A stretch of DNA of 64,000 bases, taken from Bacteriovorax sp. MedPE-SWde. Its GTDB lineage: Bacteria > Bdellovibrionota > Bacteriovoracia > Bacteriovoracales > Bacteriovoracaceae. The translations under genes were made by a program, and so were the position numbers. Positions within the stretch are counted from its first letter, which is position 1; the number at the start of each line of letters is the position of its first letter. The stretch covers positions 1 through 64,000 of the forward strand of contig MPCU01000010.1 of NCBI GenBank assembly GCA_001874305.1, read 5' to 3'. The notes beneath the pieces are model-generated. The model worked only from the letters and a program-made list of their open reading frames with translations, was not told where the DNA came from and ran no database searches. This document shows, one piece after another, positions 19,358 to 28,928 of the stretch.

Positions 19358-19432
19358 GATCGACAGGATGTCGTCGCAAGAGTAGGCAGGATGCCGAAGA
19401 AACGGGCCTTATTGCAGTAGGGCCCGTTTTTT
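19358..19432 (+). ncRNA. CsrB/RsmZ-like CsrA-sequestering sRNA candidate
   Basis: Hairpin CGAC-AGGAT-GTCG (19361-19373), hairpin GGC-AGGAT-GCC (19385-19395), intrinsic terminator; both loops expose GGA within CAGGATG. Confidence 0.6.
19402..19432 (+). terminator. Intrinsic terminator of the sRNA candidate
   Basis: ACGGGCC-TTATTGCAGTAG-GGCCCGT followed by TTTTT. Confidence 0.85.
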
Positions 19433-20051
19433 ATTTATACAATTCAAAAAGCTTTAATTCTTCTTTTTTTATTCCTGGTGCTAATTTTATAATTTCAAAC
19501 TTTCCATTATCAATTTTAAAAACACCTTTATTTGTTACAACTTTATTTACTACAGAATGCCCTGTTAGAGGTAGGTCACACGTTTTAACAAGTTTAGATA
19601 CTCCGTCCTTAGATTCATGACCCATCATAATGATTACTTCTTTCGCTCCATTTACGAGGTCCATTGCACCACCCATTCCTGTAACTTTCTTACCAGGTAT
19701 CATCCAGTTTGCAAGACTTCCATCTGTATCAACTTGCATACCACCAAGGATGCAAAAATCAATATGGCCACCTCTTATCATTCCAAAACTTAAAGAGCTA
19801 TCAAAGAAGCTCGCTCCTTTAATTGTTGAAATTGTTTCTTTACCTGCATTAATTAAAGTAGGTGAGACTTCACTTTCACAGGGCCTCTGTCCCACTCCAA
19901 GTACTCCATTTTCAGAGTGAATCATATAGGTGTGATTCTCTGGAAGGACCTCACTTACAATTGTTGGTTGTCCAATACCTAGATTTATACTTGAGTTCTC
20001 TGGGATTAAGTTTAGAACTTCTTGTGCCATTTCATGTTTTGTCCAAGTCAT
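19431..20051 (-). CDS. scoB: 3-oxoacid CoA-transferase, subunit B
   Basis: LGIGQPTIVSEVLPE; SENGVLGVG; FCILGGMQVDTDGSLANWMIPGKKVTGMGGAMDLVNGAKEVIIMM. Confidence 0.88.
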   Translation of the reverse strand: MTWTKHEMAQEVLNLIPENSSINLGIGQPTIVSEVLPENHTYMIHSENGVLGVGQRPCESEVSPTLINAGKETISTIKGASFFDSSLSFGMIRGGHIDFCILGGMQVDTDGSLANWMIPGKKVTGMGGAMDLVNGAKEVIIMMGHESKDGVSKLVKTCDLPLTGHSVVNKVVTNKGVFKIDNGKFEIIKLAPGIKKEELKLFELYK

Positions 20052-20053
20052 AT

Positions 20054-20746
20054 TTATTCCTTAACCTTTTTAAATTCAATTGCATTTTCATAATTTGAAC
20101 CTTTATAGATTCGTTGGACAAAAATACCTGGTAGGTGAACATCTTCTGGTGCAATATCTCCAAGTTCTACTAGTTCTTCAACTTCTACAATTGTAACCTT
20201 TGCCGCCATGGCCATAAGGGGAGAGAAGTTTCGTGCAGTCTCTTTAAACCATAAGTTTCCATAGGGATCTGCTTTTTGTGCTTTTATTATTGCAAAGTCT
20301 GCATGAAGTGCAGTTTCTAATATACATGGACGATCAAATTCTTTTACTTCTTTACCTTCTGCGACAAGTGTTCCGTGACCAGTCGGTGTGTAGAAAGCAC
20401 GAATACCAAGGCCTGCAGCTCTTATTCTTTCACTAAAGGTTCCTTGGGGGACAAGTTCCACATCAATCTCTTTTGCAAATATTCTCTTTTCAAGATCTGG
20501 ATTTCCTCCAACGTACGAACAATACGCCTTGGTGATCATGTCTTTTACGAGTAGCTTTACGAGGCCTCTTCCTGAGTTTCCTATATTATTTGATATGAGT
20601 GTGAGATTTCGAATAGGCATCTCTGAAAGAGTATTTATACTATTTTCAGGGATACCACAAAGTCCGAATCCTCCACTCATAATTGTAGAGTCACTAATAA
20701 CGTCTCTCAGTGCTTCCTGAGAACTTTTGAATATTTTTGTAGTCAT
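20054..20746 (-). CDS. scoA: 3-oxoacid CoA-transferase, subunit A
   Basis: IMSGGFGLCGIPENSI; LVPQGTFSERIRAAGLGIRAFYTPTGHGT. Confidence 0.88.
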   Translation of the reverse strand: MTTKIFKSSQEALRDVISDSTIMSGGFGLCGIPENSINTLSEMPIRNLTLISNNIGNSGRGLVKLLVKDMITKAYCSYVGGNPDLEKRIFAKEIDVELVPQGTFSERIRAAGLGIRAFYTPTGHGTLVAEGKEVKEFDRPCILETALHADFAIIKAQKADPYGNLWFKETARNFSPLMAMAAKVTIVEVEELVELGDIAPEDVHLPGIFVQRIYKGSNYENAIEFKKVKE

Positions 20747-21933
20747 GATAGATCCTTAATAGCATCTTCCAATTTCTCTAAGGCCTTTTCTAGACGTTTA
20801 GGAGTTGTTGTCAAAATTGGAGTTAAAATTAATGCTCCATTTGAGGAGTTGATGTAGATGCCGTTTTTTATAAAGTAGTTCCAGTCTAGCTCAATCCCTT
20901 TCGTTTGAATTGCGGCCAGTAATCCGATCGCTCGAACCTCTACTATATTTTCTAGAGTGATTATTCTCTTAGAGAACTTAGATAGAACATCCTCAAGAGC
21001 TTTAAAATTCTGATTAAATTCCTGTGTGTGAATTAAGTCAATTATCGCAGAACATAACTTAAGTCCTACTGGATGAGCATAGTTTGTTAGCCCACAACTG
21101 AGTACGTTCTTATCAAAGTATTTTGAAATTTTCTCACTTGTATAGACTGCACCAAAAGGAAAGAGCCCTCCACTTATTCCTTTGGCCATACAGACTATGT
21201 CCGGGACAAGTTTATAGTTGTGAAAACCAAAATTACGGCCAGTTCTTGCAAAGCCACATACAACCTCATCAAGAATAAGTAGTATTTCATACTTTTTGCA
21301 TAGAGCTTGAATACCGTCATACCACTTTTGAGTAGGGATAATGACACCATTTCCACCTGTGATTGATTCTAGGCATAGTGCTGCAATTTTAGAAGAACCT
21401 ATTTTATTTATGAGTTCTTCAGTTTCTTCTAATGCATTTAAAGCATCTGGTTCAGGAATAAACTCTGTGAGAGCATCCATTGTAGGACTTCCGTCTCTGC
21501 GCCAATCTCCTGTGATGGATAGAGCACCAACAGTGGCCCCGTGATAGGACTTCTTTCTCGAAAGTATAATATCTTTGCCTGTATATTGTCGGGCAATCTT
21601 TAATGCATTCTCAATAGCTTCTGCACCTGAAACAGTGTAGAAAATCTTACCATTGTCTTCTAGTTCTAAAAAGTTAATGAGTTTCTTAGTTGTTTCTTGC
21701 TTTAGTGGATAAACTATTTTTGGGCCTGCAACAGGTAGATCATGGTACTGAGTTGTGATGACCTTAGTTAGGGTATCATTTCGAAGTCCAAAGCTTAAGT
21801 GATAGCTACAGCTGCTTAGGTCATATACTTCTTGATTATCTTTTAGGACATATGAGTCCTGAGTAGTAGTCTGGATCTCAAGTTGTGGCGCGTCCTCTTG
21901 TTTTGTCCAGGTGAAGTAGTATGGTTGATTCAT
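20743..21933 (-). CDS. Class III PLP-dependent aminotransferase
   Basis: VSGAEAIENALKIARQYTGKDIILSRKKSYHGAT; LILDEVVCGFARTGRNF; DIVCMAKGISGGLFPFGAV. Confidence 0.88.
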   Translation of the reverse strand: MNQPYYFTWTKQEDAPQLEIQTTTQDSYVLKDNQEVYDLSSCSYHLSFGLRNDTLTKVITTQYHDLPVAGPKIVYPLKQETTKKLINFLELEDNGKIFYTVSGAEAIENALKIARQYTGKDIILSRKKSYHGATVGALSITGDWRRDGSPTMDALTEFIPEPDALNALEETEELINKIGSSKIAALCLESITGGNGVIIPTQKWYDGIQALCKKYEILLILDEVVCGFARTGRNFGFHNYKLVPDIVCMAKGISGGLFPFGAVYTSEKISKYFDKNVLSCGLTNYAHPVGLKLCSAIIDLIHTQEFNQNFKALEDVLSKFSKRIITLENIVEVRAIGLLAAIQTKGIELDWNYFIKNGIYINSSNGALILTPILTTTPKRLEKALEKLEDAIKDLS

Positions 21934-23003
21934 AAGTCTCTCAATGAAAAGTCATATTCGACATAATTGTCGTCATATACCTTACAACCTCGCCAGAGAT
22001 GAAATATATCACTGTTATAGTCATAGACTGCACCGCCACAGGTCATCGAGGGATCTTGTGCTCCACTATCATAGTGAGAGCAGATTGATTTTGGATGTCC
22101 TTCGTGATCTTTTAGTAAGTCTGTAAACTGAATAGAGGTGGCAACCTGACTATATTTCTTATTAAGTATTTCAAAACGTGGAAAAGTTGTTGAACTAATA
22201 CTTGCTTGATCTTCAATTTTCTTTGTTTCTGGACCTAAGCAGTGGTTTGTATGAAAGATATTTTCATCAATATTCGAATCAAGAACCTTTTCAACAGTAC
22301 ATGGTGTTATTTCCCAGTGCTCTGCATTTGCTTCATCTGAGATGAGGTAATTATGACCCGAGGTAACAGGAGAGTTTTTAAGTGTTTCTCTCATGATATC
22401 TAGGCTTGTTGCATGTAGAGCTTTTCTAACAAGTACTGGCCATATAAGACCTATCTTTGCGTTTAATGTATTTATATTATTCACTCCAATAAATACTTTA
22501 TTAGAGTTAATCCCCATCATACCAACACAACCAACGAGGCTGAAAGAATAAGAGGCAAGAGTTGTTTCAGTTTTAGGTATCTTCATAACACAGACAAACC
22601 TCTTGGCCGAACTATGCATATCCCAAGTTTGACCAGACAAATTGATTGTGTCAGTTTTCTTATTAAGAGTAGAGCAGCCTTCATCAGATAATTGGATATC
22701 TCTAAAGTCAGTGTAGTTATTTAAAATGACAATATCTTCAATTGGAAGTTCTGCTCCCTGTGCGATCCCTTCTAGCTCCTCCGTTATTTTCGGAGCAAAG
22801 TCACGAGATACTTTTAATTGCTGAAGCGCGAGTTCCTTTAGCTGAGATGAGAGTGCGGGATTCTTTGCAAGCATTAGCTTCTTTCTAATACCCGCTAGTT
22901 CCTTTATCTCCTCTTTAAATTTTTTTCCATGAGATATTCCCCACTGGAGATGAGTTTCACCTTGCTTATATTCTATTAATGGGAAATTTAAATCTTTAGT
23001 CAC
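21930..23003 (-). CDS. C45-family autoproteolytic acyltransferase/hydrolase (Ntn fold, acyl-CoA:6-APA acyltransferase-like)
   Basis: DEGCSTLNKKTDTINLSGQTWDMHSSAK matches the G-C self-cleavage site and GQnWD motif. Confidence 0.8.
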   Translation of the reverse strand: MTKDLNFPLIEYKQGETHLQWGISHGKKFKEEIKELAGIRKKLMLAKNPALSSQLKELALQQLKVSRDFAPKITEELEGIAQGAELPIEDIVILNNYTDFRDIQLSDEGCSTLNKKTDTINLSGQTWDMHSSAKRFVCVMKIPKTETTLASYSFSLVGCVGMMGINSNKVFIGVNNINTLNAKIGLIWPVLVRKALHATSLDIMRETLKNSPVTSGHNYLISDEANAEHWEITPCTVEKVLDSNIDENIFHTNHCLGPETKKIEDQASISSTTFPRFEILNKKYSQVATSIQFTDLLKDHEGHPKSICSHYDSGAQDPSMTCGGAVYDYNSDIFHLWRGCKVYDDNYVEYDFSLRDL

Positions 23004-25944
23004 TTAATTGTCCAATTGTTGGAAAGAATGGTCCGTTTGAAGAATAGATTTGTTTATTCTTATAAGAGAGTGTCTTTATTGAATCTATTTTTCTAGTCTG
23101 TCGTTTGTTTTTCTTTACTTGAAGAAGATTAGTCGACTCTACATATTGAGCAAGTGATAGTGCGTCTCCATCCCAAGTCGATATCATCATGAGTGGTTTT
23201 TCAACAAAGATATCTTCTTTCATAAATGTCATTGCCGCTTGTCCTCCGAGATATGAAAAGAAAGCATCTGGAGTATAATCTTCATTTGATGACAACCAGT
23301 GGTTATCCTCTGAATGTCCTAAATAGGCATGAGATGTCTCGTTATAAACGATTTTAGTATTTGTTTTTTTTGCCAGTACTTTTAACTCCTTTAAAAACTC
23401 AAGAGGGACGTGACCATCAATCTTTTGCGGAGTTGGCTCAATATAAATGGCGATGATATCTTCTGCACTTAGATATTGATTGAGTTGTTGTAAAATGTCG
23501 GAATAATTCTTCTCTGTTGGATGATCTAAGAAAGTTACAGGGAAGTAAGTGTTTTCCTCCTGAGATAGAGATCTTGATAGAAAACTTCCATCTCCAAAGT
23601 AATGACCTCTAAATGATATGAACCTCTGTCGATTCTTATCTTCTGTATTGAAGTATATGGATTTTGCAATTTTATCAACACTCTCTGCTTGCCCACTGGC
23701 CGTATAGACGTGTCTAAGAGGTTTTGGTGCGGAATGAGCAACTGTTTGAATATTTTTTAGAAAAGATTCACTAACAAAATTTGAAAGACAAATCTTATTA
23801 ATCATTTTGTCGATATTCTCTTCAATAAAGTCTGGAGTAATTTCTGAGTCTTTTAATGGAGAGCTCAATACTCCTGAAATTTTAGATTCTATAGATTTCC
23901 ACTTTAAAGGTGAGCGATAAATAAATACATCTCTATATTCTTCATCGTCAGGGTAGTCTTCTTCAAGGTAGATTTCAGGTACACATCCTAATGAGACATT
24001 CACGCCAAACATAGCTCCTGCAAGCTTGTCTCTATTTCTTCCATAGATATAGTTAAGCTCCTGAGCAATACCAATGATCTCAAGAGTATATTTAAGGTAT
24101 TTTCCTAATCCTTTGCCCTGCTCAGAACTACAGATTGTTGTATCAACCATATATAGTGTTTTATCGTCATTAAAGTGGCGACATCTTCTAAGACCTCTTT
24201 CATTTGGAAAGAGTGACATTCTTCCAGCAAAAGAAATACCTATCATTTTGCTATTCTTATCCAGTAGAGCGAGTGCAATATTTGGTTGATTATCAATCAG
24301 CTTATCAAATTCTTTAATATCTGTTTGTCTTGTTGGCTCGTATATTTCTTTTTCAAGCTCAATAATATCTGATCTAAATGTTTTATAATTCTCTTTGTTA
24401 ATAACGACTAAAGAGAGGTCAAAGTTTGTTCTGAAAAAGTTTTGGGCGTAATCTACAACCTCTTCTTTCGTTGTCTTCTTTGATCTTGTTTGGATAATCT
24501 TACTATGCCAATCATATTCCCAGTCTATCTCAGTATCTTTTTTCTCAATAGGTGCAGGGGATCTGAGGTCTTTTTTAAGATAGATATGATCACAAAGATT
24601 TTCAATCATATCAAAGAGAAAATCTATGTCTTGTGTCTTATATGCAGTATTGAGTCTAAAACGCAGTGTTTGAGCTCCTGCTTGATAGAATAATAGTCCA
24701 GCTTTAAATCTGTTAGCAATAAACTTAGGTATATCTTCAGCATTATCAATTTCAAAAGCAAAGGCCATTCCAAATGCTCTTGGTTTAGATAATTGTTCAT
24801 AATTTTCAACAAGCTTACTCAATTTAGCTTGTACATATTCTTCTAGTTCTAAAATTACAGAATTCTTCTGATCAATAATTAGGCCATGATAGAAGCCCCT
24901 TAGGATTGATGCGAATTGATTTTCTTGATTGTGCCAAGGAAGTTGTTTATCTCCAATAACAAGACCCGTTTGTGATTTTTTTGCACAAGTTATGTAGTCT
25001 GGAGTTACAGAATTTCCACTACTGTCTGTAATATCAAATGTTCTGTGCCAAAAGAAGTCTCTGCCTAATCCAAAGCCTGTTTGAACTTCATCAAAAATCA
25101 GTGGGATATCATATGACTTTGCAAGTAAGAGTAGTGCCGTATTAAACCTATTCGTACAATATCTATCACCACCTTCACACTGCATCGGTTCAGTTATTAT
25201 TACAAAAATCTCTTTTGCTTCTAGTTGCTTCTTAACAAATAGTAATGACTCAATTTCTTTGTCGAGTTCATTATCATTTCCTTCAAACTTTTTAAGATCT
25301 TTTGAGAAATCTTCACTTTGTGGATCTTCCCAAATTTTTCTCCAACTATCTTTTACTTCCACCATAAAGTTAGAATGAGTAAGTGAAGGGAAGGGAGAAA
25401 ATACAGTTTCAAAGCCTTTTAGTTGGAAGGGTTCTCTCTTGGTTTGATTCCATGTAGAAAAGAGTGAAACCATAAATCTTCCATGAAAAGATCCTTCAAA
25501 GGCAAGTACCTTTTTAGCATTTGGATTTACACGATTTTGATATGCCATTCCCATTGCTGTTTCATTTGCTTCTGCACCTGAATTTACGAAGCATAGATCA
25601 ATATCTCTATTTGCTGTTTTCTTTTTTAAAAAGCCTTTAAATGCTTTGATTAGATCTTTTGCATCTTCAGTATCTTGATTGTTAGTCCATGACTCTTGAA
25701 AGTGTGGAACTCCAAAGAATGGAGTTGGATTAAACCCGAGTCCAAGTGTTGCTATCTGACTTGCGGCATCTTGAATATACCCGCATGAGTTTTCACCTTC
25801 AACTGCTAGGTAAGGCCCAAATGACTTTCTATGAAGTGATAGGAACGGTTTTTTTTCTGCTGGTATAAGTTCTTCTTTATAATAAGTAGCTAACTTATCC
25901 TGGGCATGAGTTGAGTGTTCTGTTTCTACAAAGTTAATTTTCAT
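22996..25944 (-). CDS. Fusion protein: class III aminotransferase + GNAT acetyltransferase + degenerate aminotransferase domain
   Basis: N-term FVNSGAEANETAMGMAYQNR, LIFDEVQTGFGLGRDFFW, YITCAKKSQTG; middle DTTICSSEQGKGLGKYLKYTLEIIG GNAT motif A; C-term VYTASGQAESVDKI...KIVYNETSHAY...SYLGGQAAMTF. Confidence 0.82.
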   Translation of the reverse strand: MKINFVETEHSTHAQDKLATYYKEELIPAEKKPFLSLHRKSFGPYLAVEGENSCGYIQDAASQIATLGLGFNPTPFFGVPHFQESWTNNQDTEDAKDLIKAFKGFLKKKTANRDIDLCFVNSGAEANETAMGMAYQNRVNPNAKKVLAFEGSFHGRFMVSLFSTWNQTKREPFQLKGFETVFSPFPSLTHSNFMVEVKDSWRKIWEDPQSEDFSKDLKKFEGNDNELDKEIESLLFVKKQLEAKEIFVIITEPMQCEGGDRYCTNRFNTALLLLAKSYDIPLIFDEVQTGFGLGRDFFWHRTFDITDSSGNSVTPDYITCAKKSQTGLVIGDKQLPWHNQENQFASILRGFYHGLIIDQKNSVILELEEYVQAKLSKLVENYEQLSKPRAFGMAFAFEIDNAEDIPKFIANRFKAGLLFYQAGAQTLRFRLNTAYKTQDIDFLFDMIENLCDHIYLKKDLRSPAPIEKKDTEIDWEYDWHSKIIQTRSKKTTKEEVVDYAQNFFRTNFDLSLVVINKENYKTFRSDIIELEKEIYEPTRQTDIKEFDKLIDNQPNIALALLDKNSKMIGISFAGRMSLFPNERGLRRCRHFNDDKTLYMVDTTICSSEQGKGLGKYLKYTLEIIGIAQELNYIYGRNRDKLAGAMFGVNVSLGCVPEIYLEEDYPDDEEYRDVFIYRSPLKWKSIESKISGVLSSPLKDSEITPDFIEENIDKMINKICLSNFVSESFLKNIQTVAHSAPKPLRHVYTASGQAESVDKIAKSIYFNTEDKNRQRFISFRGHYFGDGSFLSRSLSQEENTYFPVTFLDHPTEKNYSDILQQLNQYLSAEDIIAIYIEPTPQKIDGHVPLEFLKELKVLAKKTNTKIVYNETSHAYLGHSEDNHWLSSNEDYTPDAFFSYLGGQAAMTFMKEDIFVEKPLMMISTWDGDALSLAQYVESTNLLQVKKNKRQTRKIDSIKTLSYKNKQIYSSNGPFFPTIGQLSD

Positions 25945-25947
25945 ATT

Positions 25948-26940
25948 CTACCTTAAATCTTTTAAAATATTGTTCTTTAAAAATTCTTCAAACTTAAGAC
26001 CTGTTGCCTCAAGCATTTGTGGGAACATTGATATAGGAGTCATACCAGGGAAGGTATTGATTTCATTTAAGAATATTCCATCGTCAGATAAAAAGAAGTC
26101 AATTCTTGATAAGTGACGAAGCCCAATCGATTTAAACGACTTTAGTGCAATTGATTTCATTAAATCAATTTGCTCTTGTGTTACATTCTGTGCTTTTACT
26201 TCTGTGTCTGTATGTGACTTCTTAGAGTACTTTTCTTCGTAAGTATAGAAGCCGTCTGGGCATATTATTTCGCCTGGGTCTGAAGCCTTGATCTCTCCTT
26301 CTATTTCATAGACGGCCACTTCAAGCTCTCTTCCTTTAATTGTTCTTTCAATCAATACATTATCAGAATAGTTGAAAGCTTCTTTAATTTTAGGAATGAG
26401 GTCTTCTTTTATTTGGACATGAAAGCATCCAACTGATGAGCCTTGGTTTGCCGCTTTAACAAATACATCGTTAGCGTTTTTATCAAAGAAGTCGATATAT
26501 TCTTGTTCTATAAGTTCGTTATATTTATTCGCAAATATCCAAGGTGTATTTGGTATTTTTAAAGTATCAAACCAAAGTTTAGTTGTTACTTTGTTAAAAC
26601 AAATTGAGCTAGATTCTGGGCCAGGTCCAAAGTAGGGGATGTCGAGAGTTTGAAGAAAGCTTTGTATCTCTCCTGTCTCCCCTGGTGGCCCATGAATAAC
26701 TGGGATAACGTAGTCAATATAAGGTTGTTCTGTTGGTGTTTTTAGAATACGACCATTGAGAGAGGACTTTCGTCCTTCGCTTTCCCAGTGTCCTTCTTTT
26801 GTGATTTCGACAAGAATCGGGTTGAAAATGTCTATCTTCTTGAGACAGTCATAGACATATTTAGACGAAATTGCAGAGATTTCGTGCTCAGTTCCTCCGC
26901 CTCCGAAGAGTACGAGGATATTTTTCCTTTCCGTGGACAT
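25948..26940 (-). CDS. ddl: D-alanine--D-alanine ligase family ATP-grasp enzyme
   Basis: LFGGGGTEHEISAIS; IPVIHGPPGETGEIQ; FVKAANQGSSVGC; LSRIDFFLSDDGIFLNEINTFPGMTPISMFPQM. Confidence 0.85.
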   Translation of the reverse strand: MSTERKNILVLFGGGGTEHEISAISSKYVYDCLKKIDIFNPILVEITKEGHWESEGRKSSLNGRILKTPTEQPYIDYVIPVIHGPPGETGEIQSFLQTLDIPYFGPGPESSSICFNKVTTKLWFDTLKIPNTPWIFANKYNELIEQEYIDFFDKNANDVFVKAANQGSSVGCFHVQIKEDLIPKIKEAFNYSDNVLIERTIKGRELEVAVYEIEGEIKASDPGEIICPDGFYTYEEKYSKKSHTDTEVKAQNVTQEQIDLMKSIALKSFKSIGLRHLSRIDFFLSDDGIFLNEINTFPGMTPISMFPQMLEATGLKFEEFLKNNILKDLR

Positions 26941-26969
26941 ATATCCTTCCTTGAATGTAGGTGCCGAGC

Positions 26970-28715
26970 TTAGAGCTCGGCAGGTATTTTCTTACTATTT
27001 AATTCATTGAATCTTGAAAAGAGATCATCGTTAGACCATGTGAATGTTTTCTTTTCACCGTGCTTTCTAACTGAAACTGATCCACTTTCCATTTCTCTAT
27101 CACCGATAACTAGCATAAATGGTACTTTCGCTTTTTGAATCTGGCGAGTCTTGTAGCCCATTGATTCATTACGATCGTCAACCTTCACTCTGTAACCTTT
27201 AGAGAATAGCTCCTTTTGAAGCTTTCTTGCGTACTCACCATGAATATCAAGATTAACTGGAACAATAATGGCCTGTTCTGGTGCTAGCCAGAATGGGAAT
27301 ACACCAGCAACGTGTTCTAGATATACTCCAAAAAATCTCTCAAGTGATCCAAGAAGTGCTCTGTGAATAACTACTGGTCTCTCTTCTCCACCTTCTTGAG
27401 TTGTAAACTTAAGGTCGAAACGATCTGGAAGTTGGAAGTCTAGTTGGATAGTCCCTAATTGGTGATATCTTCCTAGTGCATCAGCAACATCTATATCAAT
27501 CTTTGGCCCATAGAATGCACCATCACCTTCTTTTATAAAGTACTCTTGTCCTGAGTTATCAAGGGCATCTTTAAGTGCTTTTTCAGCAATGTCCCATGTT
27601 TCATCACTTCCGGCCTTCTTTTCAGGTCTTGTTGAAAGATTAACTTTAACGTTTTGAAAATCAAACATTTCGTATGCTGTTAAAATCATCTTCATAGTTC
27701 TTTGAATTTCTTCTTGAACTTGAGCTAGTGCTAAGAAGATATGTGCATCGTCTTGGCAAAATGTTCTAACTCTAGTTAGACCAGCAAGAGCACCAGCTTT
27801 TTCATATCTATGTAGTCTACCAAAGTCAGCATATCTCATAGGTAGGTCACGGTAGCTATATTTGTAATGCTTAAACATTAGCATATGACATGGGCAGTTC
27901 ATTGGCTTTACAGCGTACTCACGCTCGTCAACTTTTGAAAAGAACATATTTTCTTTATAGTGCTCATAGTGGCCAGAAGTGTGCCATAGCTCACTATCTA
28001 ATACCTGAGGAGTAATAACTTCATCATACTCATAAATTCTATAAAGCTTTCTGATATATTCGATAAGTTCGTTATATACGAAGGCACCCTTTGGCATAAA
28101 GAATGGTGCTCCTGGAGATGATGCTTCAAAGTGGAATAGCTCCAACTCTTTTCCAAGTTTTCTGTGATCTCTCTTCTTTGCTTCTTCCAGCATCATTAGG
28201 TGCTTTTTTAAGACTTTTCTATCTTGAAAACAAACAGCGTAAATTCTTTGTAGCATTTGGTTCTTTTCATCACCACGCCAATAAGCTCCAGCAATAGATA
28301 GTAGCTTGAATCCTTGTGGGAGTTGTGAAGTGCTTTCAACGTGTGGTCCACGGCAAAGGTCAATGAATTCACCTTGTTGATAACAAGAAACTTCTTCACC
28401 CTCAGGAATTGCTTCAATAAGCTCAACTTTTAAGTCTTGCCCTTCTTTTTTAAAGAAATCTACAGCTTCATCACGTGCCATTACTTTTCTTTCTATCGGA
28501 AGACCTTCTTTGATGATTGTTTTCATCATATCTTCAATCTTAACAAGATCTTCTTCATTCAAGGTTGAGGTCATTTGAACATCATAATAGAACCCATGCT
28601 CAATAACTGGACCAACACCGAATTGAACGCTTTCATTCGGGTAAAGTCTTGAAATTGCTTGGGCCATGAGGTGAGCAGACGAGTGTCTAATCGTATCAAT
28701 GTCAAATTTGGCCAT
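26970..28715 (-). CDS. thrS: Threonyl-tRNA synthetase lacking a TGS domain; likely start at 28715 (MAKFDIDTIRHSSAH)
   Basis: Editing domain RHSSAHLMAQAI, CRGPHV; catalytic MNCPCHMLMFKHYKYSYRDLPMRYADFGRLHRYEKAGALAGLTRVRTFCQDDAHIF. Confidence 0.95.
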   Translation of the reverse strand: MAKFDIDTIRHSSAHLMAQAISRLYPNESVQFGVGPVIEHGFYYDVQMTSTLNEEDLVKIEDMMKTIIKEGLPIERKVMARDEAVDFFKKEGQDLKVELIEAIPEGEEVSCYQQGEFIDLCRGPHVESTSQLPQGFKLLSIAGAYWRGDEKNQMLQRIYAVCFQDRKVLKKHLMMLEEAKKRDHRKLGKELELFHFEASSPGAPFFMPKGAFVYNELIEYIRKLYRIYEYDEVITPQVLDSELWHTSGHYEHYKENMFFSKVDEREYAVKPMNCPCHMLMFKHYKYSYRDLPMRYADFGRLHRYEKAGALAGLTRVRTFCQDDAHIFLALAQVQEEIQRTMKMILTAYEMFDFQNVKVNLSTRPEKKAGSDETWDIAEKALKDALDNSGQEYFIKEGDGAFYGPKIDIDVADALGRYHQLGTIQLDFQLPDRFDLKFTTQEGGEERPVVIHRALLGSLERFFGVYLEHVAGVFPFWLAPEQAIIVPVNLDIHGEYARKLQKELFSKGYRVKVDDRNESMGYKTRQIQKAKVPFMLVIGDREMESGSVSVRKHGEKKTFTWSNDDLFSRFNELNSKKIPAEL

Positions 28716-28928
28716 TACCTTTCTCCAATTGCAAAAAAAATGCAAAAATATTTTTGTGGTTAAGTGCCTACAATAACAGATAATTAAAGGGTTCATCAAT
28801 GGTATGCGTGTAATATTTTTCACATTTTTTACTTGTTTTGACTTGTTGCACAGTGACGTGCTATGACTTATTCGTGGTAAGATTCCGCAACTATCTCACA
28901 TTTGTAATTTTTTACGGGGAGGACACAG

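Follow-up and report, generated by a model that had tools for sequence, protein, structure and literature searches.

In the AST pathway (AstC/AstA/AstD/AstE), an amine is acylated, the omega-amine is transaminated, AstD (succinylglutamate-semialdehyde dehydrogenase) carries out an oxidation, and the acyl group is removed. Lysine epsilon-aminotransferase (LAT) likewise acts on the omega-amine of a six-carbon amino acid. In class III enzymes the threonine of the STW loop reaches the PLP phosphate of the neighboring subunit, and in serine palmitoyltransferase (LCB1/LCB2) a lysine-less PLP-fold partner completes the active site of the catalytic one. The gene for lysine aminomutase clusters with that for the beta-lysine acetyltransferase AblB, and the enzyme is distinct from EpmB/YjeK (PMC2821294).

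The locus described here lies in a 64,000-nucleotide stretch of Bacteriovorax sp. MedPE-SWde (contig MPCU01000010.1), referred to below as the window. A preliminary description had marked out positions 19431-26940 as six tightly packed minus-strand genes serving one coupled pathway, and had named their families. All six ORFs are present over that span, and the junctions along the run from CoA-transferase subunit B to Ddl are +2, -4, -4, -8 and +3 nt. The features, with the domains of the fusion protein (FUS) and the adjoining thrS gene, are as follows.

19431..20051, minus strand: CoA-transferase subunit B (CoAB), 206 aa, PcaJ/ScoB family; TIGR02428, 264 bits, over the cut-off; order conserved
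20054..20746, minus strand: CoA-transferase subunit A (CoAA), 230 aa, PcaI/ScoA family; TIGR02429, 246 bits, over the cut-off
20743..21933, minus strand: AT2, class III aminotransferase, 396 aa, Aminotran_3; proposed beta-aminotransferase
21930..23003, minus strand: C45, Ntn autoproteolytic acyltransferase/hydrolase, 357 aa, GTG start; NF040521; proposed deacylase
22996..25944, minus strand: FUS, three-domain fusion of 982 aa (AT1 - GNAT - lysine-less aminotransferase)
24571..25944, minus strand: FUS domain 1 (AT1), aa 1-458, similar to lysine epsilon-aminotransferase and GABA transaminase; K322, HGR156, EGGD257-260
23839..24549, minus strand: FUS domain 2, aa 466-702, GNAT fold with the acyl-CoA motif QGKGLG
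22999..23838, minus strand: FUS domain 3, aa 703-982, degenerate class III aminotransferase; STW(D/E)GD at 922-927
25948..26940, minus strand: Ddl, D-Ala-D-Ala ligase, 330 aa; NF002527, 356.6 bits against a cut-off of 310
26970..28823, minus strand: thrS, threonyl-tRNA synthetase; continues the gene run upstream, 29 nt beyond ddl

The family names were upheld by TIGR02428/TIGR02429, Aminotran_3, NF040521 and NF002527. The label "aminotransferase-GNAT fusion" was correct for two domains, both of which are real, but had missed the third, a lysine-less aminotransferase domain at about residues 703-982. A perfect 9-bp GC-rich inverted repeat (26962-26982) between thrS and ddl has no T-run on the coding strand and is possibly regulatory; no riboswitch was found near the cluster in the window or in four related loci.

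Conservation of a five-gene core

In 20-kb neighborhoods, the run thrS-ddl-FUS-C45-AT2-CoAA-CoAB is conserved among relatives in the window's family, the Bacteriovoracaceae (f1). The core order FUS-C45-AT2-CoAA-CoAB is kept in Bacteriovoracales and in Myxococcota, where FUS identity is 25-37%, and the core is nearly complete in Planctomycetota, with C45-AT2(-CoAA) kept. A genome-wide scan recovered full-length FUS, 25-44% identical, from Bdellovibrionota, Myxococcota and Planctomycetota; the named relatives of the fusion belong to Bacteriovoracaceae and Halobacteriovoraceae. Among the FUS loci for which 4.5 kb or more of downstream sequence was available, C45 follows FUS in 17/17 loci of Bdellovibrionota, 18/24 of Myxococcota and 3/3 of Planctomycetota, and the complete order C45-AT2-CoAA-CoAB follows it in 15/17, 7/24 and 0/3, respectively. 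The five-gene arrangement is thus far beyond chance, its order recurring in many distinct loci of different phyla, and the neighborhood comparison bears out the expected co-conservation for FUS, C45, AT2, CoAA and CoAB. Order kept at such low identity is strong evidence that the five genes serve one function.

The core is not always whole. AT2 is absent from the cluster in two genomes of the window's family (G006 and G002), and genomes of f7, a second family within the phylum, retain just FUS-C45 of the five core genes. The FUS frame of the draft genome G002 (C196, L019) carries an in-frame TAG, which may be a sequencing error or mark a decaying copy.

Ddl stands apart from this unit. Relatives that lack the other five genes still have thrS-ddl as a pair, in 14 loci, and a check for a second ddl found the window Ddl to be the sole ligase of its genome above the Ddl cut-off. 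Ddl is therefore a thrS-linked housekeeping gene, part of an older, separate pair, and peptide ligation is not implied. The idea of six genes in one coupled pathway accordingly survives for five of them and fails for Ddl. A peptide or cell-wall pathway using Ddl was ruled out, since thrS-ddl is the ancestral pair and occurs independently of the cluster. We would caution that tight coupling alone should not bring a ligase into a pathway: Ddl is a neighbor, not a partner.

A GNAT domain fused between two aminotransferase domains

The single-chain AlphaFold2 model of FUS had a mean pLDDT of 88.4 and a pTM of 0.90. Domain 1 is closest to M. tuberculosis LAT by profile (4.7e-47), had 2jjh/2cin as top matches in a Foldseek fold search, and is also close to GABA transaminase. 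Its PLP lysine, K322, aligned to the GKK of LAT, is invariant in a 54-sequence alignment. The FUS score against the L-lysine 6-aminotransferase model TIGR03251 (93.7 bits; about 103 for f7 members) is below the cut-off of 520.8. The STWGGN loop of LAT is absent from AT1, and STW(D/E)GD is found in domain 3 instead.

Domain 3 has profile matches to class III aminotransferases. Profile-profile alignment with domain 1 placed L-G opposite K322-K323, and S922, T923, W924, G926 and D927 are invariant across the 54 sequences. As the loop has been lost from domain 1 and the lysine from domain 3, the two probably form one composite active site. If so, FUS would be a clear case of a duplicated PLP-fold domain that, having lost its catalytic lysine, was retained in-chain to complete the active site of its partner.

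Domain 2, modeled on its own (pLDDT 90.1, pTM 0.87), gave Foldseek matches to RimI/SpeG. The GNAT segment matched no NCBIfam model, those of AblB and the AstA family (TIGR03243) included, and no family match from the libraries or fold matches pointed to a substrate.

Partner enzymes and the adjoining dehydrogenase

C45 scored 168.8 bits against NF040521 (cut-off 85) and has an invariant G109-C110 in 31 sequences. It matched isopenicillin N acyltransferase (IAT; 2x1d) at 8.6e-24, and in that alignment C110 falls on the GC where IAT is cleaved. The best solved relative of AT2 is taurine:2-oxoglutarate aminotransferase, whose substrate is a beta-amino compound. Both CoA-transferase subunits exceed the cut-offs of the 3-oxoacid CoA-transferase models (TIGR02429/TIGR02428). 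The best PDB match of CoAA is B. subtilis SCOT subunit A, and among cluster-bearing relatives CoAA is 68-86% identical, whereas the general ScoA-like paralogue, at ~50%, falls in a different set.

Automatic clustering of ORFs in high-GC loci returned mostly antisense ORFs, yet it exposed a further partner: an aldehyde dehydrogenase (ALDH) adjoins FUS in 25 loci, nearly all from Myxococcota, and is usually directly upstream, as it is for most myxococcal FUS copies. All four cluster ALDHs scanned had AstD models as their best match, at 324-400 bits versus 208-255 bits for succinate-semialdehyde dehydrogenase (SSADH); against the AstD cut-off of 579.3, the four reach 324-393 bits. No ALDH was found inside the cluster in Bacteriovoracales or the planctomycetes. 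A run encoding AstC-like aminotransferase, AstA-like succinyltransferase and AstD-like dehydrogenase lies at L327 3028-6932 (G000:C11), and the AstD-like dehydrogenase of this operon is present in most f1 genomes, those without FUS as well. We also sought a FUS-specific AstD-like dehydrogenase in the window's family and rejected the sole candidate, which occurs in genomes without FUS too.

None of the recurrent cluster neighbors is a synthetase, carrier protein or exporter. The surroundings of FUS-C45 in the f7 genome G041 include a different CoA-transferase pair and a thiolase. A 793-aa LYS1/saccharopine-dehydrogenase-like protein (L221 6599-8980, Pirellulaceae), which has no NCBIfam match at 1e-10, overlaps the start of FUS.

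Association with lysine 2,3-aminomutase

A full-length lysine 2,3-aminomutase (KamA) gene lies on the same strand directly downstream of CoAA in two Pirellulales loci (L168 and L221), and a third planctomycete, G096, carries CoAA-KamA as a lone pair away from FUS. KamA of G000 is full length (447 aa) and keeps the equivalents of R134, D293 and D330 of 2A5H, which we take to be the lysine-binding residues of lysine 2,3-aminomutase. The L221 protein scored 277.5 bits against TIGR03820, below the cut-off of 525.4, and passed the cut-off of the broader TIGR00238.

We compared the occurrence of KamA and FUS by Fisher test. KamA is present in 28/28 f1 genomes with FUS versus 4/31 without; as those with FUS form one clade, the match there amounts to about one event, and a phylogenetically independent test inside the window's family is impossible. 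FUS-bearing genomes from other loci, Myxococcota but for one unassigned, have KamA in 17/19 cases, compared with 21/57 of the Myxococcota sampled without FUS. Among planctomycetes the counts are 3/3 with FUS and 0/79 for the sampled FUS-lacking genomes in the order of the Pirellulaceae genome, a pattern that fits joint transfer of FUS and KamA. Taken as a whole, the link of the cluster to beta-lysine is moderately supported.

No KamA gene linked to the cluster was found in 18 genomes of the window's family. KamA of this subtype is absent from three Bdellovibrionota genomes that have only FUS-C45 (G041, G055 and G237), so FUS and C45 can function in its absence, perhaps with another substrate. 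G088 and G099 may also be without KamA; the sampled taxa are mostly draft genomes, and absences such as these two may therefore reflect incomplete assembly. FUS of f7 is N-terminally extended (L050 7539-11728, L051 1-9326), and there the FUS-C45 pair may have a different substrate. Three genomes of the window's family (G017, G024 and G030) have a full-length KamA, at 63-64% identity, and no FUS, pointing to another use of KamA or to loss of the cluster.

A proposed catabolic route and its alternatives

We propose that FUS, C45, AT2 and the two CoA-transferase subunits form the core of an L-lysine catabolic pathway through KamA and an acyl-protected beta-lysine, a reading to which we give a probability of somewhat under 40%. 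KamA, encoded elsewhere in the window's genome, would make L-beta-lysine, and the GNAT domain of FUS would acylate one amine, most likely the 3-amine, from acyl-CoA. AT1, with the STWDGD loop of domain 3 on the PLP-phosphate side, would then transaminate the free 6-amine to give 3-acylamino-6-oxohexanoate, which would not cyclize because the other amine is blocked, the same logic as in the AST pathway. An AstD-like ALDH, the one within the cluster in Myxococcota and possibly that of the AST operon in the window's family, would oxidize this to 3-acylaminoadipate. C45 would remove the acyl group, AT2 would convert 3-aminoadipate to 3-oxoadipate, the CoA-transferase would make 3-oxoadipyl-CoA, and a thiolase would yield succinyl-CoA and acetyl-CoA. 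Beta-lysine keeps the 6-amine-to-carboxylate spacing of lysine and so suits a LAT-like AT1; 3-aminoadipate has a beta-amine, which suits AT2; and a CoA-transferase of the PcaIJ type would suit the product 3-oxoadipate. In Myxococcota, the gene order ALDH-FUS-C45-AT2-CoAA-CoAB runs roughly parallel to the proposed steps. The substrates, the acyl group, the amine acylated and the composite active site are all things that we infer. More tentatively still, this may be a new lysine route, running by way of acyl-beta-lysine, 3-aminoadipate and 3-oxoadipate to succinyl-CoA and acetyl-CoA and driven by a single-chain, composite-site enzyme built around a fused acyltransferase.

The same gene set could serve the main rival, a route through acetyl-beta-lysine and GABA, reportedly described biochemically long ago in a Pseudomonas. 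There, KamA would be followed by N6-acetylation by the GNAT, conversion of the 3-amine to a ketone (3-oxo-6-acetamidohexanoate) by an aminotransferase, CoA transfer by CoAA and CoAB to give the 3-oxoacyl-CoA, and thiolysis to acetyl-CoA and 4-acetamidobutyryl-CoA; C45 would free GABA, and the second aminotransferase and ALDH would complete the route via succinate semialdehyde. KamA, a 3-oxoacid CoA-transferase, two aminotransferases and a thiolase (in G041) are all accommodated, as is the closeness of AT1 to GABA transaminase. The gene order fits less well, the literature searched gives no genes for such a route, and the cluster dehydrogenase scores far better as AstD than as SSADH. It is because of this last resemblance that we modestly prefer the 3-oxoadipate route, and we consider the GABA route unlikely. 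An AST-like pathway on alpha-lysine or ornithine seems rather improbable. In it the GNAT would act on the alpha-amine, AT1 and the AstD-like enzyme would give N-acyl-aminoadipate or acyl-glutamate, C45 would deacylate, AT2 would form the 2-oxo acid, and the CoA-transferase would work downstream or recycle the acyl group, KamA being incidental. The likeness of AT1 to LAT and of the ALDH to AstD agrees with this, as do the LYS1/saccharopine-dehydrogenase-like gene abutting FUS in L221 and the genomes that have FUS-C45 without this KamA; yet it leaves unexplained KamA in the planctomycete cluster, the lone CoAA-KamA pair and the co-distribution with KamA in three phyla, and a distinct AstC-AstA-AstD operon is already present in the family.

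The preliminary description had favored synthesis or remodeling of an N-acylated amino acid or small peptide, possibly with an omega-amino substrate. The acylated intermediate and the omega-amine are still the best reading and the peptide is not, and synthesis is less likely than catabolism given the 3-oxoacid type of the CoA-transferase and the KamA and AstD-like partners. A biosynthetic cluster would make an acylated beta-amino acid as an osmolyte or as a lipid or peptide building block, with C45 as an acyl-CoA-dependent acyltransferase. IAT, the closest solved relative of C45, can indeed transfer acyl groups, and the pairing of KamA with a GNAT is reminiscent of osmolyte synthesis by AblA/AblB; an osmolyte cluster would not be expected to contain an ALDH, a 3-oxoacid CoA-transferase and two aminotransferases, the neighbors include no recurrent synthetase, carrier protein or exporter, and the GNAT segment does not match AblB or any other NCBIfam model, so that we regard biosynthesis as improbable to much the same degree as the AST-like pathway. 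Replacement of DapD, DapC and DapE by the GNAT, AT1 and C45 in an acyl-diaminopimelate (DAP) pathway is very improbable. FUS-C45 of f7 does adjoin dapF (G055) or dapA-dapB (G041), and no DAP deacylase was assigned, as E. coli DapE has no match in G000 and DapL scores stay below the cut-off in every genome of the family. However, an obvious DapE is missing from genomes without FUS too, so FUS does not occur specifically where the pathway has a gap; DapD, in a dapB-dapA-dapD run, occurs in genomes with and without FUS alike, and the CoA-transferase, AT2, ALDH and KamA would be unexplained. In G000 such a run (C13:48989-52293) is followed by a LysA-like protein of ~403 aa, and another LysA is encoded elsewhere (C8).

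Should the acyl-beta-lysine route be correct, it would provide genes and defined chemistry for beta-lysine breakdown, connect free-living KamA genes, by way of 3-oxoadipate, with central metabolism, and show how organisms that prey on bacteria may exploit a diet rich in protein.

Comparison with known systems

The gene set had been noted as fitting no recognized pathway, and this holds: it looks like a lysine route and matches none of the lysine or GABA degradation routes known to us gene for gene. The literature searched contained nothing relevant on 3-aminoadipate or acetamidobutyrate routes from beta-lysine. The cluster is probably a case of acyl-protected amino-acid catabolism, known in kind, with an unusual enzyme architecture and a proposed route that the literature searched does not describe.

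The AST pathway shares the proposed sequence of acylation of an amine, transamination of the omega-amine, AstD-like oxidation and deacylation. It differs in that the cluster GNAT does not resemble AstA and shares one chain with an aminotransferase domain on either side, deacylation would fall to an Ntn enzyme of the C45 family instead of AstE, the AstD scores are below the cut-off, and a CoA-transferase, a second aminotransferase and KamA are added. AblA/AblB synthesis of N-epsilon-acetyl-beta-lysine likewise brings lysine 2,3-aminomutase together with a GNAT, whereas family searches show no relation of the cluster GNAT to AblB, the domain is fused to aminotransferases, and additional genes of catabolic type are present. 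C45 is like the IAT/C45 family (PF03417, NF040521) in exceeding the cut-off and in its invariant Gly-Cys autoproteolysis site, but it sits in an amino-acid rather than a beta-lactam cluster, and we propose that it would catalyze hydrolysis, not transfer.

LAT (TIGR03251; Rv3290c) is nearest to AT1 by both profile and fold, with K322, HGR and EGGD in common. AT1 is nevertheless far below the cut-off, and LAT has STWGGN in its own chain, while FUS has STW(D/E)GD in a fused, lysine-less domain. The putative pairing of a catalytic and a lysine-less half is functionally analogous to LCB1/LCB2, with the difference that the halves of FUS lie in one chain, have the class III aminotransferase fold and flank a GNAT.
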